Assembly: GCA_030323885.1 (NCBI GenBank)
Contig: CM059193.1
Span: forward strand, 75,027,040-75,091,039
Direction of reading: 5' to 3'
DNA length: 64,000 bases
From: Branchipolynoe longqiensis
Taxonomy: Eukaryota; Annelida; Polychaeta; Phyllodocida; Polynoidae
The position numbers and the translations under genes were made by a program. Of the stretch, positions 2,290 to 53,450 are shown piece by piece; within the stretch, counting starts at the first letter, position 1, and each line of letters begins with the position of its first letter. Under the pieces are notes generated by a model. It had not been told where the DNA came from. It did no database searches and was given only the letters and a program-made list of their open reading frames with translations.

Positions 2290-5200
2290 TGATTTGTTTT
2301 TTACATTGTGTTTCATAATCCCATAGAATACATATATTTAAGCAAATGTCCTTGGTTTCAGGTACCGTTCTGTCTGTTTGTGTCAATCGTACGTGGACAA
2401 AAAAAAGAAGTGTTATCACCTTTGGACAGGCTCAATATGGCATCATGGCTATATATCAGTATCTGAATAAGGCTTTGAGTATAATAAGCCTGGAATATTC
2501 CATCTACTCGCCAGCCTCCTCAGTCTTCGGCTGGTTGAGTCTATTCATTAGGTCATCTACTGATATAACCTCAGCTTTCCACCTACTCGGCCATGCCTCA
2601 GTGACCATTACGCTCACACTTACCGTGAAACATATGGGTGGTTTCTGTAAATGGGCAATGTACTTTCAGCATTAATGTCAAAACAATTATGGAATGAGTA
2701 GAGAGGTATTTCTGATACATTGTATCTTACACTTGGAGAGATATTAGACAAATAAGGCCTAATGTGACATAGTAGAAAAAAGCCAACATTTGTATTAAAA
2801 AAATATTGTGTTTTAAAGTCATGAATTTGTGACATGGAGAATTTGGACTTATCTACAGCCTACTAGACCTCTATTTTGCATAGAATATTAACAGTTACTA
2901 TTGTTGCATGTGTAAGGCTATTTTCTAGTACCATGGCTAGTAATATAATTTGTCTACAAAGCTTTATGAAAAGAAATTGAAGTTGAAGTTCCATATTATT
3001 GTTGGGGCCACCTTCTATTGTGTTACATCCAAAAATCAAAATTGGGAGAAACATAATCATCCTATGCAGATTTCTTTACAGTGCATTTCTATAGTTAGGG
3101 GACCACAATGTAAAAATTAATTGTTTCATGCAATAAATTTGATTAAATAATTGATTTGATTAATAAATCCACACTTCCTGGTTAATAAGTCCACACTTGG
3201 GGCTGGCTACTCAATTAGTTCTTGTTTGTCTGACAAAATGGCAACGTCAACTATATTTTCCTTCACATTACCAGGATATGTATGGATAAGTGTTGGCTGC
3301 TCAGTGAAAGAAATTGGAAAATACACATTATTCATTTTTGACTCCCATGTCTCACTTTGGCCACATGTACCATGAAACGACCCATATATATATATATATA
3401 TATATATGAGTCAGCCTCACGAAAATGGGCCAATAGGTGGTCAATTGAAGATGTCGGCGTCACAATTCTTAAAAGTGTAGTGTATTTCTTTGTTTCATAT
3501 TAAATTATCCTAGAAACAAATAAGGTTGTTGTATTTTCTCGACCTTTACATTCAGGATACATTTAAGGACTTTCCAACACCTCTGTCAATGCTAAATTAT
3601 AAATATACCGATCAACGCCGACATCGATGCTCGAAGCCGACAATTTTCCACAATTGGCCTCTTTTCGTGATCCTGACCCATTATATAATAGTACTTGTCA
3701 TCAGTAACCCTGGAATGTGTTAATCACTGCCATTTGTGAACAATTTTGTCAATGTCCAAACTGGTGTAGTTTTATTTGACTATCCTTATAATGACAGGAC
3801 AGCGGCCATGTCAGGACAACATCGGTGTGGATGCAGAGTTGTCCTTTGAAACGAGGTACTACTGTACAATACATATATCTATATATATACATAAATATAT
3901 AATGATTTTAGTGAGGAAAGAAATGCGATAGATAATTACATTCATCTTAAAAAGAAAATCAATTCCATACGCATCCAATCGACTGCCTATCCCTCGAGGC
4001 ACCGCCCTCTTGATGAAGTCCTGCTTTTGATCATAATGATGTATATTTTAGTAGCCCTGGTTCAAAAGAAGAGAAAATGGCACTTTGATATTGCAATCGA
4101 AAACCAATAAGATCTGTGACGTATCTTAGAAGAATCATGTGAAGATGTGATGAAAGTGACATGCGATATGCCTGCTGACCCTGCCTGAGCCTGAGCTCTT
4201 TTCCAACGACTCTGAAGTTATCAAATTGTGTTTGATTTGGCGTGGAATGACGAGCGAGTCCACCACCTTCCACCTCTCTCCACTGGTCACCTAGCCCACC
4301 ACCTCCTGATTGGCAATCAGATTTCTGACCATTTCACCAATCATAATCCCTCCGCACCTCGCCCCTTCCACTACCTCACTTCCTGGCGAGCTGGCGACCG
4401 GAGCAAACTTTCTTCCCACCCACCTGTCCACAAAGCGTCGTTATAATATGTCTGTTAACTTGGGATTTTACCTTTACATATTTTAATATTTGACCTTGGA
4501 ACTTCTATTGGGTCACACATCATTTCCCTATGACATTTTCTGTTTACTTCCTCCTTGTTCTTTTGCTGAATCTGTATATGTGTATATATGGTTTTGATGC
4601 TCATGCATGTTTAAATATTTAATATGTTGTTTTCTTTAATATATTACCCATAGCCTGATTAGTCCTTTCATATAGGACAAGCTTCAATGCTCCTCATATA
4701 CTTCCAAGCTTGCTCTTGTGAAGGGCAAATTGCGATGACTGCCAGTAAAACATCATATTGAGTTCAAGAGTTCACTAAATGCCTATAAAGCTATTGTAGC
4801 AGATCCAATGTCCACCGTTCCATGGTCTTTCACTCGTCCACGTGCACACAGAAGAATGCTAAGATTTAGAGACAGTACGCTTCCACTGGTTTATTACCAA
4901 ATCTATCCGCTCTCTGTGGCACCAATCATCAAATGACCTGCCCCCTAACTCTCTAGGTCCCACATCGCCTCTATAGGTGGGTGGGGTGTGTGCTAGCCAC
5001 ATGCAGTAGAGGGTAGCCCAGTTGGGGCCCTGCCCGGTGGGTAGCATGCCGCCAACTAGCGCTGTTCAATGTAACTGCATAGGTGTGCGGTGTAGTGTCT
5101 GCCGCCACCGCATGGTAGTGGAGCTCATGTGCAGACTACTACACTATCAATAGTAAAGTAAAAGAATGTTTCAGCAATCTTCTATCCCTGAAACAGAAAT

Positions 5201-18694: not shown

Positions 18695-19066
18695 TAGCGA
18701 TATAGCGAAGGGTAGACAGGAAGTGTGAACACTTATTTGTCTCTCTTTCTTTTTTGTTGGTACATTAGTTGTCCCAAGGAGGGGAAATCCAAGTCACAGA
18801 CGACTGGTCTTCCCCACTCCACTGCTGGTCGATAGAAGGCCCGAGCCTACACTTTTACCGACCCAAGGGATTTTTAACCTCCCACACCACATAGACATGT
18901 TATGAGAGCAACCAGCCTTTGATGACGCTGTAAGTTATACACAGTGGTGGAAATCCAAATTGGCAGACCTGGGGGCACGGGGAATCAAACCGCCGACCCT
19001 CAGATTAGGAGTCTGACCTAGAAAAAAGTCAGACACTCTAACCACTCCGCCAGAGAGAACGCCACT
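18695..19066 (-). mobile_element. SINE family B, tail type B1
   Basis: Complete minus-strand copy. It keeps the block GATGACGCTGTAAGTTATAC that is lost from the copy at 7446-7795. Its 3' end (plus-strand AGGAAGTGTGAACACTTATT) matches the LINE tail at 42904-42965. Confidence 0.9.
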
Positions 19067-21640: not shown

Positions 21641-21642
21641 AT

Positions 21643-21953
21643 TGTTGTTGTTGAAGATTTATATTGCCTATCATGGATAAGTTTGAAAAGACTTGTTTTC
21701 ACCATTAGACAGTTTGTCAATAGAAAGCCTGAGCCTACACTTTTACCGACCCAAGGGATTTTTAACCTCCCACACCACATAGACATGGCATGAGAGCAAC
21801 TGGCCTTTCATGACGCTGTAAGTTATACACAGCGGTGGAAATCCAAATTGGCAGAGCTGGGGGCATGGGGAATCGAACCACCGACCTTCAGATTAGGAGT
21901 GTGACCTAGAAAAAAGTCATACACTCTAACCACTCCGCCACAGAGAACGCCAC
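21643..21953 (-). mobile_element. SINE family B, tail type B2
   Basis: Complete minus-strand copy. The head is the same as in the B1 copies, but the 3' part is CTGTCTAATGGTGAAAACA and GATAGGCAATATAAATCTTC. The tail ends in a CAACAACAAC-like run. Confidence 0.9.
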
Positions 21954-22162
21954 TATAATTATACTTATGTAGGATCTGTGCAACAGCATTGGCTCGCCTT
22001 GGATTCGAATCGATACAGCATGAAGCAAGCCCAAGCGCTATTATAAATGTGCATAATCGCTTGCTGTGTAGCGAGAGTAGATATATATAGGACTTATTTA
22101 ACGTACTAAAGCCTATGGGGTGGTTTTTGTGAAAAAAGCAGCCAATCAGCGTCGAGTATTCT

Positions 22163-22174
22163 GGTCACGTGACC
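22163..22174. promoter_or_regulatory. E-box palindrome in the terminal repeat
   Basis: GGTCACGTGACC is a 12-bp perfect palindrome with a CACGTG core, the known target of USF/Myc-type bHLH factors. It is kept in the right arm as well. Confidence 0.5.
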
Positions 22175-22487
22175 GTCCAGGGTGGGTCTAGGGTGGGAGG
22201 GTGTTTTTGTCTCAGCCAATAGGAAGGCTTGATTTTGCTAATTTATGCTAATTTATGTATCTAGGTCACGCCTATGCCCAAATAAGGCTCGTTGAAACTA
22301 GGTCAAGTTTGGGGGGTTTGACCTAGATAGGGTGTTAAAAAGTTCCATTCGGCGCTTAAGGCTTGAGTCTATGGAATGGTACCCTGTGTTTGCGTGCACT
22401 ATAAGGCCATTTTTCGTGAATTTTAGTAAATTGTGTGTGCGTGTGTGTGCACCCCCACAAAAAGGGGGCGTGGCCTATTTTAGTTTC

Positions 22488-22604
22488 AGCCAATGATCGT
22501 TGAGTATTTGGATGATTGACAGGTACGAATCCCAAAGGGTGGTTGTGCTATTTTCCGTTTCAGCCAATGCTCGTTGAGTATTTGGATGATTGACAGATAC
22601 GAAC
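22488..22604 (+). promoter_or_regulatory. Duplicated CCAAT-containing block
   Basis: Two direct copies of a block of about 36 bases (CAGCCAATG, TCGTTGAG, TATTTGGATGATTGACAG) start 74 bases apart, about 210 and 135 bases upstream of the ATG at 22697. CCAAT is the NF-Y site. The duplicated spacing suggests a promoter or a terminal protein-binding array. Confidence 0.45.
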
Positions 22605-22696
22605 GGGTTTGGTGGTGGATTTTGCGTAATTTAGTAAACATTGGCACGTGCTTTTGGGGGTTGAGGTGGGGTTGATGTAAATATGGGCACGTGCGC

Positions 22697-23284
22697 ATGC
22701 GTTTTGTGAATCAACTATCGCAAGTGCTGACATTGCACAAAAATGCATTACGAACAGCAAAAAACAAAATATATGTTGAAACAAAAGCGATTATACAATA
22801 CGAAAAAGACTTAAAACACTGTGAATTATGTGGTGGAATAAACCCGATACCATTTTACTCGGGTTATCTGCTAAAAAAATATGACAAACGAATTCAGAAG
22901 GAAGTTGCCGCAACAAAGAAAAAAGAAAAAAAGAAGAAGTCAAGTGTGCATTTTGATCAAACTGATTTAGACTCTGATTCTGAAACTAATATCAAAATAT
23001 TTCAGAATTGGTCTAAACAAACTAAAAACATTATGGTTCCAATTGAATTATACAAAGCAGATTTTTATGATCGTGAATTACGTCGCTTTTCAACTGAAAT
23101 AAATGCTGATATCTTACAACAATTGACTAATATATCTACATTAGTAACAAATATGGCAACTTCTTCCGCATATGTAACCACTGCTGCAAATACAATTGCC
23201 AATCGTAAAAAATTACCTACTATGTGTGAATTAAATTGTATTGCAACAAAAGCTGAATCCTCTGATTCTGAGGAATATTGTTAA
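22697..23284 (+). CDS. Single 195-residue protein of the Maverick-like element
   Basis: I do not recognise this protein. The longest frame extends to 22691 only by using a non-ATG codon, so I take the ATG at 22697, which lies in the left terminal repeat. In rough order it has a basic, helical-looking N-terminus, one CxxC-type cysteine pair (CELCGG, about residues 42-47) and a Lys-rich stretch near residue 75 (KKKEKKKKS) that could be a nuclear signal. An acidic Asp/Ser run (DSDSE) follows, then a Ser/Thr/Ala-rich helix with INADILQQLTNIS, and an acidic end SSDSEEYC. There is no membrane segment or signal peptide. Codon use is AT-rich compared with the GC-richer arms, and the frame is free of damage. 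A structural, regulatory or packaging-related role is possible but nothing shows it. Confidence 0.7.
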   Translation: MRFVNQLSQVLTLHKNALRTAKNKIYVETKAIIQYEKDLKHCELCGGINPIPFYSGYLLKKYDKRIQKEVAATKKKEKKKKSSVHFDQTDLDSDSETNIKIFQNWSKQTKNIMVPIELYKADFYDRELRRFSTEINADILQQLTNISTLVTNMATSSAYVTTAANTIANRKKLPTMCELNCIATKAESSDSEEYC

Positions 23285-23309
23285 AAAAAAAAAACTTGTC
23301 ATTTTTTAA

Positions 23310-23315
23310 AATAAA
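23310..23315 (+). terminator. Poly(A) signal after the 195-residue gene
   Basis: AATAAA lies 26 bases after the stop codon, within an A/T-rich stretch. This fits a self-contained transcription unit. Confidence 0.55.
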
Positions 23316-23389
23316 AACAATATTGTGTAATTTTGTTTTCTTGTGTTCTTTTCTTTTAAAAGTCTAAATGACATCAGCAATGGTTTAGG

Positions 23390-23590
23390 TTAGGCATTTC
23401 CGGTTTCAGTTTTGGTTTTGGTTTTGGTTTTGGTATTATGCAAGCACGGCTTAGGTCAGCACCAAATATAACTTAAAAAAAAAAAATTACAAATCAACAC
23501 AACTACCGGATGTTAGGCATTTCCGGTTTCAGTTTCGGGTTTTCGTCGTCTTATGCAAGCACGGCGGTGGCGGCGGCATTGCCGCCAAAA
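23390..23590 (+). repeat. Internal direct repeat near the right arm
   Basis: TTAGGCATTTCCGGTTTCAG occurs at about 23390 and about 23513. Both copies are followed by a TTTTCG/TTTTGG-rich run and by TTATGCAAGCACGGC. The two blocks are about 123 bases apart. (GGTTTT)n lies between 23408 and 23432. Confidence 0.75.
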
Positions 23591-23596
23591 TTCAAA

Positions 23597-24231
23597 ATTC
23601 ACAAAACGCACGCGCACGCGCCCATATTTACATCAACCCCACCTCAACCCCCAAAAGCACGTGCCAATGTTTACTAAATTACGCAAAATCCACCACCAAA
23701 CCCGTTCGTATCTGTCAATCATCCAAATACTCAACGAGCATTGGCTGAAACGGAAAATAGCACAACCACCCTTTGGGATTCGTACCTGTCAATCATCCAA
23801 ATACTCAACGATCATTGGCTGAAACTAAAATAGGCCACGCCCCCTTTTTGTGGGGGTGCACACACACGCACACACAATTTACTAAAATTCACGAAAAATG
23901 GCCTTATAGTGCGCGCAAACACAGGGTACCATTCCATAGACTCAAGCCTTAAGCGCCGAATGGAACTTTTTAACACCCTATCTAGGTCAAACCCCCAAAC
24001 TTGACCTAGTTTCAACGAGCCTTATTTGGGCATAGGCGTGACCTAGATACATAAATTTGCATAAATTAGCAAAATCAAGCCTTCCTATTGGCTGAGACAA
24101 AAACACCCTCCCACCCTAGACCCACCCTGGACGGTCACGTGACCAGAATACTCGACGCTGATTGGCTGCTTTTTTCACAAAAACCACCCCATAGGCTTTA
24201 GTACGTTAAATAAGTCCTATATATATCTACT
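23597..24231 (-). repeat. Right terminal inverted repeat, 635 bp
   Basis: Inverted copy of 22076-22711. Differences are few, for example GCGCGTGCGCGTGCG here against GCACGTGCGCATGCG in the left arm and one fewer G in a G run. It lacks a gene facing inwards. Confidence 0.95.
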
Positions 24232-24427
24232 AGCGAGCTAATCAATATGTCTGCAATCTCTATGCAGTCCACCTATTGCAGTATGGGCTTATTGTATGGA
24301 AAGTGCTCCTCCCCCCCCACCCACCCACTACCCACCCCAGCCCATTCGATAGTTATACTCCCCATCTCTCTGACATTTTCAAACCGTACGTGATGGCCGA
24401 ATCGGCAAGAGCACTGGTTGGCTTCCT

Positions 24428-48892: not shown

Positions 48893-49220
48893 GGGAAGGA
48901 GAGGAAGAGGGGGTGAGGGGGGGTGAGGAGTAATAAGGTTGCCCAAATCCTACTTGTGCACATAAAGTGTGAGTCAGAAGGGAGGTGTGGGGTGGGGGTA
49001 AAGTGGCAAATGGAGGAGGTGGAGGTCGGAGGAATGGGAAGAGGGGGTGGGGGAATGGAGAGCAGTCGGGATTCTTGGCAAATGGGGGTGGGGGAATATT
49101 GGGTGGGGATATAGGAATATGGTGGTGAAAGTATGGAGATAAGGGGAAGCAAGAGGAAGTGGCTGGGGGAATGGAGGAATGGAGGAATGGAGGAATGGAG
49201 GAATGGAGGAATGGGGGAAT
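48893..49220. repeat. G-rich tract and GGAATGGA array
   Basis: 48893-49167 is irregular G-rich sequence. 49168-49215 is GGAATGGA repeated about six times. It meets the truncated end of the DIRS-like element. Confidence 0.85.
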
Positions 49221-49221
49221 G

Positions 49222-50330
49222 GGTCGTGTGTCAGTTTGATGGTTACTACGTGTCTTCTGGTGTTGCATAGGGTGGCTAGGATCCGGTTCATTAACCGTCT
49301 AGCTATGTGTTGGAGATGTCCGACGATGCATTGGAGGGTACTTCTCGTGATGGTGGGGTGGCAGCGGACTTCTTGGCATTTCATGATGATGTCAGAAAGC
49401 TTGGCGTCTGGGATCCGTAACATCATCTGTTGGGTGCAGATTTTGTACCCTATCCATTCGAGGCGGTGGGTCAGAGGGGTGCACTTCATAGGTGAAAGTG
49501 CTAGGTCAAGGCTGGCCGCAATGTCTAGCATGTCAATGTAGGCAGCGTCGGCGGCTTTCTTGGTTGCTGCAGCCTCGACAAAGTTGGCGCAGGCCATTGA
49601 GGAGGTCCTGCACCCGAATGCTATGTTGAAATACACCTTTGAGTCCAGGGTGATTCCCAGGAAGGGGACTGACAGGGCACATGCCCTGATCTGGCGGTAT
49701 GTTCGGGCCAGGTCTGCTGACCAGATGTAGCAGCCCTGGCCGAGCCTTGTGAACTCGCCGCCAGGTCCATGATGCCAGGGAAGGTGTAAGTTGTCGGCCT
49801 TCCTTGGAGGTGGCCCTTCCTGCTGCCCGCATTGGCGCTGGTGCCCCTGGGGTAGCTAAGGTCCACGATGACCCGCCTCTCGTTATTGTTCCTCTTAGGC
49901 CGGGTCATCATGGGGCTGCTCTGGGCCCAGTGGGTGAAAGGCGTCTTGGTGACTGGGCCGAGGAGCGCACCTTGCGCGATGCCATGCTGCTGCATCCACT
50001 GTAGGTGGTCCCGGTCTTCGGCATGGTTGCTGCTGGCGGGAACAGGAGGATGGTCAGCAGTGTAGTCGGCGGGCCATCCGTACTCCAAGAACTCCACCAG
50101 TTGGCCGCTGTGGTATCCTTCGAGGAGCTTGCGCCATGCTGATACATGGTTGGGCAGTCCGGTGGCCCGTACCCTGTTGTATATGGCCAAGTAGTGCTTG
50201 TTGGCCCATGAGGCGGCCACTGCTGTCGGCAAGATGCGGCGTAGGGTCGGTCGGTAGGTGATCGGCGTGTGCGGCGGGTCATAGGGGGGGTGCCGGTGTA
50301 GCAGGAAATCGCAAATCCTGTAAATCGCAA
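49222..50330 (-). pseudogene. DIRS-type reverse transcriptase, broken
   Basis: The N-terminal part has NHVSAWRKLLEGYHSGQLV and QGALLGPVTKTPFTHWAQSS, then PKRNNNERRVIVDLSYPRG, all typical of DIRS/PAT reverse transcriptases. A frameshift near 49758 follows. The next frame has SADLARTYRQ, which holds the first catalytic Asp of motif A. Then ACANFVEAA joins directly to ATKKAADAAY, so the segment that should hold the YxDD box of motif C is deleted. The end, LALSPMKC, LEWIGYKI and LQCIVGHLQHIARR, is the known RT/RNase H connection. The product cannot be active. Expected position in DIRS is after gag, as here. Confidence 0.85.
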
Positions 50331-51080
50331 ACCCCCACTTGTGATTTCCTAGGAAATCGTAAACCCCCATGCCATATATGGGCATGGGGGGTTTGTGATT
50401 TCCTAGGAAATCACATATCCCCCCTAGAGATCACAAACCCCCATGTTAATGAAACAGATAGTTATTCTGGCTTTTCTTATTGATGTAGTCTAGTATCTTT
50501 GAAAACAAATTGACCTGGTCCCCTAGCCTTCTTGTGCTCAGTGAATAATGGCCCTTGCTGTGAGAGGAATGAAATTAAAAATAATCAATTAATCCATCTC
50601 GTGAGGGATCCCCCTTATATGAAAATAAATGTGGCAGCCTATGTATGTGCATTCTATGTATTGCAAAGTGACTGATAGTTTTGTAGGGAATTAGACATTT
50701 GTTAGTTCAAAGTGTTTAAAGAAGTTGTGCTGGTTTTTCTTAATGTTGTAGTTTAGTATCTTTGACAAAAATTGATCTGGTCCCTTATCCTTCTTGTGAG
50801 TGATAAATAGCAGTGAAAAGGGCCTTTGCTGTGACAGCATGACATCAAAACTAATCAATTAATCCATCTTGATCCTCCTTGAATCCATTTTATCCCCCAG
50901 ATCTGGTAGAAGTTCAAAATCAAACATAGGTCTATTGCTGCCCTGTTTGTGGTGATAAATGCTACAAAGCATTGGGGGGGGGGGGTTTGTCATTTCCAGG
51001 GGGGGTTTGTGATTTCCTAGTAAATCGCAAACCCTGGGGTATGCAATTTCCAGGGGTTTGCGATTTACTGCCACACCGGC
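50292..51080. mobile_element. 789-bp inverted-repeat element inside DIRS
   Basis: GCCGGTGTAGCAGGAAATCG at the left and its inverted relative ending CTGCCACACCGGC at the right bound the insertion. Both are followed inwards by alternating AAATCGCAAACCCC and AAATCACAAACCCCC blocks. The interior has a direct duplication (GGTTTTTCTTAATGTTGTAG-like at about 50465 and 50730, about 260 apart, each ending ATCAATTAATCCATCT). The disrupted RT frame resumes beyond it. Target duplication is unclear and the class is unknown. Confidence 0.7.
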
Positions 51081-52200: not shown

Positions 52201-53142
52201 CTGGCTCAAATTCCAGCAGTGGCAAGGGCAGCCATCTGTCTTGTGATTAAATTAGGGCCATTTGTACTGCTGGTGTGATGAGGTGCTGGTCTACTCACTT
52301 CTATATTGACCGTCATCGTCCAGGCGCTGTTGTGGTGATCATTGTAGGCGTCTGCCTGACGTGATGCATTTTTGGGCATGATAATTTCTGCTCCCGGTGA
52401 GGCACGTGTCCGATTGGACATCTTTGATGGTTGTTGGGTTTTTCCAGGCTCTGGGAAGCCTCCCATCATCTATCATTTTGAAGATCCATTACAACCACGC
52501 CAGACAGGTTTCCCATTCCCACTCTCCGGCCATCTCAACGATATATTTGACATGCTCGGCTAGTGGCTCGACCCAGCTGCGAGGGACGGTCGAGTTCTTT
52601 GCCATCCTATGGATAGTGGAAATGTATTCATACCAGGTACTCTTGCCCTGGCCTACTTTCCCCTTCTGCTCCCAAGGAATCACAAAGGTATTAGGACGAA
52701 GAGGCTTCCTACCTTTACGAGCTGTGTTGTAGTTGTTGTTTGCATGCATTATATTGTCTATAACCTCCTCGGACGATGGAGAGTGCCTTTTGTTGTGGCT
52801 TCCTTTCGTCCGTCGACGGTCCTTGTCTTCACGCTCCCAGTGAGGCTTGCTGCTATGTGATGTGGAGTTTGGGCGCCAGGCTCGGCTCGATTCTGCGGAG
52901 GAGGATTTTTCCCGGCTCGGCTGCTCCTTGTGACGAGAGCTAGTGTGGCGACGGCTGGATGATGAAAACGATGAGGTGGATGCGGATTGCCGACTGGGGG
53001 AGTGTCTCCTTTTCTTTTTGGTAGCCTCCATGGCCGACATCCTGTCCAACATCACCCTGTTGACTTCGGCATGCTGGGCAATTGTCGGCCAGATACTGCT
53101 GGAGTTGATGGGCGTCATCCGAGGTGTCAGGGTGGGCGGCAT
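52200..53142 (-). pseudogene. DIRS-like gag-like protein
   Basis: A 217-residue minus-strand frame starts MPPTLTPRMTPINSSSIW. A Ser/Arg/Lys-rich middle (about residues 40-120, RRHSPSRQSASTSSFSSSSR) and a compact C-terminal part with NTFVIPWEQKGKVGQG and HVKYIVEMAGEWEWETCLAW follow. A TAA at 52489 interrupts the frame, but the same frame beyond it reads WIFKMIDDGRLPRAW, which looks like natural continuation. Basic, Ser-rich first ORFs with this layout occur in DIRS elements. I see no CCHC zinc knuckle. Confidence 0.65.
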
Positions 53143-53450
53143 CCGTTTATGGTGAAGTCGGCTGCCGGTTGGTGATGGACGGTGGAGCTACCACTGAGCG
53201 AGGCCGACCCTGGGGTGTGGGGCGGCATCTGCTATGGTGGTCTCCGGTACGTTGTGGGAGGTTGCGTGATCGGCAGCATGGTGTTTGCACTTGGCGTCAC
53301 GAGGGGCTGAGGCATCTTGAGGTGTCTGAGGTGGAGCTGAGTAAAGCTGGTTGTGTTGCTGGTCCGACTCCTGGAGCCGTAGTGGTAGAATCAGGATCTG
53401 GCTGGCCGTCGACAACCGGTTGTGACGTCACGAGTCTCGCATGCGAGACC

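Follow-up and report, generated by a model that had tools for sequence, protein, structure and literature searches.

The locus described here raises the question of whether a short DNA element with Maverick/Polinton-like ends and a single open gene is a miniature element in its own right or what is left of a much larger one. It lies in a window of 64,000 nucleotides (the whole stretch of DNA that was analyzed), which is part of contig C8 (97 Mb) of the 1.85-Gb genome of Branchipolynoe longqiensis. An initial annotation of this DNA had described a 2,156-bp element with 636-bp near-identical arms, AG..CT ends and an exact AGCGAG duplication, and arm alignment and inspection of the sequence bear out each of these points. 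The element spans 22076-24231 and terminates in AGTAGA and TCTACT; its inverted arms (22076-22711 and 23597-24231) differ by four substitutions and one gap over 636 aligned columns (99.2% identity), and AGCGAG is repeated exactly on both sides. A 7-bp duplication, TAGCGAG, is a possible alternative, but the element ends would then be unsymmetrical. No further copies of the arms were found in the window besides the element's own two. The features of the locus, as read from the sequence and from comparison with longer relatives elsewhere in the genome, are as follows.

22070..22075, no strand: target-site duplication AGCGAG, left copy (sequence)
22076..22711, plus strand: left terminal inverted repeat, inner side apparently cut (636 of about 700-725 bp; arm alignment, long copies)
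22710..22712, plus strand: putative deletion junction at which the left repeat meets the terminal gene in its 5' part, the two sharing 2 bp, AT (long-copy comparison)
22697..23284, plus strand: terminal accessory gene, apparently 5'-truncated, 195-residue frame (open reading frame, genome copies)
23285..23507, no strand: non-coding stretch from the gene to the right repeat, with AATAAA at 23310 (sequence, long copies)
23508..24231, minus strand: right terminal inverted repeat, complete (about 724 bp), of which 23597-24231 pairs with the left arm (arm alignment, long copies)
24232..24237, no strand: target-site duplication AGCGAG, right copy (sequence)

Several smaller features were seen within the element. 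Each arm contains three diverged copies of a CAGCCAAT...GAGTATT unit (22131-22190, 22478-22535 and 22552-22609, mirrored in the right arm), together with a fourth CCAAT and CACGTG palindromes; these motifs may be promoter or replication-protein sites. A segment starting with GTTAGGCATTTCCGG is partly duplicated in tandem at 23389-23570, between the gene and the right repeat, and the duplication spans the inner end of that repeat. Rfam and tRNA scans returned nothing.

The arms are by no means confined to this locus. A genome search gave 269 candidate places, and all 40 that were scored, two of them being the window's own arms, matched over the whole length with 95-100% identity. Other arms begin with AGTAGA in 26 of 28 cases and with AGTAGT in the remaining two. 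Long elements bounded by the same arms are present as well: we examined seven arm pairs spaced 12.8-25.3 kb apart, and six of them (12,847, 19,428, 19,391, 25,264, 18,955 and 19,645 bp) are flanked by perfect 6-bp duplications. The seventh (C4:45837481-45856947; 19,467 bp) has full-length spacing and unmatched flanks, AACGCA versus AAGTTC, and appears from its sequence to be a rearranged or recombinant copy. Across six long copies the matching stretch of the two repeats measures about 690-740 bp, in most cases 700-725 bp, which indicates that the left arm in the window is truncated and that only the right arm (about 23508-24231) is complete.

The gene content of these long elements identifies the family. 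One piece was taken from each of three different long copies; of the 30 frames in these pieces that reach 100 residues, 21 were scanned against Pfam. In the C4 copy with unmatched flanks, the piece adjoining the terminal gene gave matches above the cut-off to an rve integrase (E 7.6e-13) together with a chromodomain (E 8.4e-7), and to an adenovirus-type protease (E 4.8e-6). The middle piece of a C8 copy with a perfect duplication matched the Pox_A32 ATPase (E 1.7e-4) and DNA_pol_B_2 (E 2.7e-5), both just below the cut-off. A genome-wide search with PF03175, in which 32 candidates were scored, gave one match just above the cut-off at a place other than the examined copies, so that the polymerase assignment for the long copies comes down to one short match below the cut-off. 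No capsid model matched in the scanned frames, the nearest being MCPVI at E 0.056. As a side observation, in one long copy a frame with a Vsr-like endonuclease match (L062:1463-3046; PHROG E 2.4e-6, PDB Vsr only E 0.08-0.12) lies directly upstream of, and in frame with, the polymerase-matching piece at 3050-3379, and a stop codon parts the two. The view that the ends at the window locus are those of a Maverick/Polinton is thus upheld by the 6-bp duplications and by the Maverick genes inside long elements with the same arms.

None of these core genes is present in the window element itself: polymerase B, integrase, ATPase, protease and capsid genes were all absent, and its 2,156 bp hold a single frame of more than 100 residues, without a Pfam family. 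This frame is open from 22676 to 23284 (202 codons), and the ATG at 22697 gives a protein of 195 residues. When 5,000 random sequences of 1,121 nt were drawn from a first-order Markov model of the same composition and read in six frames, two had an open run of equal or greater length. A search of the genome with the 195-residue protein, in which all 150 candidates were scored, gave 135 match rows, some loci contributing more than one, and as for the proposed count of copies with and without it, the gene proved to be a regular part of the long elements. An arm lies beyond the 3' end of the gene and faces it at 27 of 29 other gene loci, as in the window, at a distance of about 0.3 kb in close copies and a more variable one in distant copies; the other two loci showed no arm within reach.

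On the opposite side of the gene the window copy differs from the 29 others. All of these have the region upstream of the gene, which the window copy lacks; the coverage is at least 381 of 400 bases at 27 loci and about 87 bases at L033 and L054. At these last two loci the upstream similarity stops about 87 bases before the fifth codon, near the likely start codon, and they appear to have a different upstream neighbor. In the five copies that were read, the frame extends about 29 residues further upstream to what is likely the start, and this stretch resembles by eye the N-terminus of P0001, a relative from outside this genome (see below). The window gene is without about 29 N-terminal codons, and the left repeat supplies its start codon and first five codons; this repeat stops at its position 636, where it passes directly into the gene, the two overlapping by 2 bp. 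The arms differ at the first base of this ATG, which accounts for one of their five differences, but the variant is also found in 3 of 28 other arms; it thus looks like a standing variant and not like an adaptation. The initial annotation had called the gene intact. Its frame is indeed open, yet its 5' part is missing compared with the other copies in the genome, which makes it, in our reading, a 5'-truncated version of the gene that stands at the end of the long elements.

The junction between repeat and gene was found at none of the 29 other gene loci. In addition, the window row is the only one to start at residue 1 of the protein, and because the other 134 rows all begin at residue 4 or beyond, the junction looks single-copy. 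Several copies of the short structure at different sites were thus not seen, either among the 135 match rows or at the 29 other gene loci, and with a single copy in evidence there is no sign that the short form has spread, although further short copies may exist, 40 of the 269 arm candidates having been scored. Two earlier suggestions lose their footing here, namely that the element is not a random internal remnant and that it is a satellite-like passenger of a full Maverick: what it carries is a 5'-truncated terminal gene behind a junction that, among the gene loci compared, was seen only here.

Taken together, the element is almost certainly an internal-deletion derivative of a resident, multi-copy Maverick/Polinton family, with which it shares its ends and the layout from gene to repeat (a colinear terminal gene), and it is recent in relative terms and probably non-autonomous. 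The parent would have been about 19 kb long and bounded by repeats of about 700-725 bp, its terminal gene being read outward in the direction of one of them. It would have lost roughly 17 kb when position 636 of the repeat was joined to the terminal gene within its 5' part, with a 2-bp overlap, presumably in a single event such as a template switch or end joining. This deletion may have taken place before integration or in place afterwards. The retained ends might serve as substrates for the integrase and the protein-primed polymerase of a helper, and since the remnant encodes neither of the two, it would depend on their supply in trans. That the frame is open might be explained by the youth of this copy of a constrained parental gene, together with a repeat variant that by chance provides an in-frame ATG. 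The element thus resembles an ordinary relic more than a novel one-gene unit.

Both selection and very recent origin had been proposed as reasons for the undamaged frame, and the two fared differently. For pN/pS we used 16 of the 30 gene loci (L031-L060), those with unbroken frames, leaving out 13 loci with an internal stop and L052 (a partial match), an omission that favors constraint; the pairs are not independent. The ratio was 0.33 between two gene lineages (48 pairs), 0.31 within the second lineage (6 pairs) and 0.55 within the first (66 pairs). For the window gene against 11 other copies of its own lineage it was 0.78, with 15 synonymous and 45 non-synonymous differences summed over the pairs, and the single codon change private to the window gene is non-synonymous. 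This pattern indicates that the protein is constrained in the long-element family, and nothing shows constraint on the window copy. On neutral decay the outcome is mixed: constraint shows in the comparison between lineages, but little or none is visible when the window gene is set against its closest copies, from which it has few differences, and the purifying signal belongs to the long elements. Recent origin is better supported, in relative terms: the arms of the window element differ by four substitutions, compared with 5, 11, 20, 29, 33 and 42 in six long copies, and the identity of its gene with other copies reaches 99.65%. The insertion thus appears to be one of the youngest in the set, although repeats may also become homogenized. 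At 0.90, the CpG ratio of the element is higher than in 91% of 310 stretches of the same size from the window, as would fit a young insertion; the ratio of an adjoining GC-rich repeat is higher still.

The protein itself has few relatives. Among 5.8 billion proteins two were found outside this genome, P0001 (213 aa, 71% identity, E 1.1e-77) and P0002 (163 aa, 62% identity, E 7.9e-53), the latter on a contig whose size of 17.6 kb might point to a full-length Maverick. A profile search of the protein database, with 7,992 candidates scored, returned only these two again, and searches of phages and viral contigs gave no relative. Pfam and PHROGs assigned no family (the best Pfam hit, with E 0.0063, scored 15.8 bits, the cut-off being 30.4), the best hit in a PDB sequence search had an E of 0.14, and AlphaFold2, run on a three-row alignment, gave a mean pLDDT of 39 and no confident fold.

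Other explanations of the locus have to be weighed against deletion from a resident Maverick as such. The deletion might have occurred in a replicating Maverick, the resulting 2.2-kb form with both ends, a defective-interfering-like genome, then being integrated in trans by a full-length helper. Both outer ends and a perfect duplication were kept, the arms are nearly identical and the genome holds many long relatives, all of which would be expected in such a case; however, an in-place deletion within an integrated long copy leaves the same duplication and the same ends, and only one copy of the junction was seen among the gene-match rows and the 29 other gene loci. We consider this course of events possible but rather unlikely. 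The same doubt attaches to the prediction that goes with it, of a defective-interfering-like Maverick that perhaps still makes a shortened accessory protein from the start codon supplied by the repeat.

It is very improbable that the element belongs to a stable satellite lineage in which the 195-residue gene is kept as an aid to movement. The open frame, the in-frame ATG and the AATAAA would suit such a lineage, as would the constraint on the protein family between lineages, but the gene is 5'-truncated, its junction was seen once, its ATG is a variant also present in other arms, and its pN/pS against the closest copies is 0.78. Moreover, no facing arm was found within 1.4 kb at any of 28 other arm loci, five of which are partly masked. 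Membership in another superfamily with 6-bp duplications, such as IS3EU or GingerRoot, of which the element would be a non-autonomous member, can be practically dismissed, for although the length of the duplication agrees, the AG..CT termini and the virus-like protease, ATPase and polymerase matches in the long partners speak against it. As published, IS3EU ends are TA..TA, and those of GingerRoot are mostly TA..TA and occasionally TG..CA (PMC10045372).

The surroundings of the element contain other repeats. A repeat of about 180-320 bp that looks SINE-like is dispersed over the window; one copy lies at 21642-21956, with its right end about 115 bp to the left of the insertion, and others are near 18828, 30410, 47020, 53880 and 59081. 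Ten other frames in the window gave no Pfam family above the cut-off, and two frames on the minus strand (48974-50430 and 52489-53187), likewise without such a match, resemble what we take to be pieces of DIRS-type retroelements.

Derivatives that arose by internal deletion from other DNA transposons, like the defective-interfering genomes of viruses, typically keep their ends and lose their interior, with a short overlap at the junction. The window element differs from them in that spread of the short form is not in evidence, its junction having been seen once. A one-gene or internally deleted Maverick was not found in the open literature that was searched. According to a vertebrate survey, AGTAGT is the commonest end motif of vertebrate Mavericks and their repeats measure 46-1,447 bp (PMC8097293). 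The family described here agrees with that set in its 6-bp duplications, AGT-type ends and repeat length, and its long copies also in their size and in their integrase, protease, ATPase-like and polymerase-like matches, whereas the window element is 2.2 kb long, without any of the core genes and with a left repeat that is cut short. In the Hessian fly, degraded Mavericks have been described with consensuses of 600-4,500 bp and copies with accumulated deletions (PMC8504770). Short remnants produced by deletion are thus common to both cases, but the Hessian fly copies retain parts of the polymerase or integrase, in contrast to the window element, which retains both ends, a perfect duplication and the terminal accessory gene only.

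The locus itself is a relic. Its significance is that it points to a Maverick family present in many copies in this genome, some of them with perfect duplications and nearly identical repeats, and to a terminal accessory gene that belongs to no Pfam family, has two relatives outside the genome and is constrained between two lineages.
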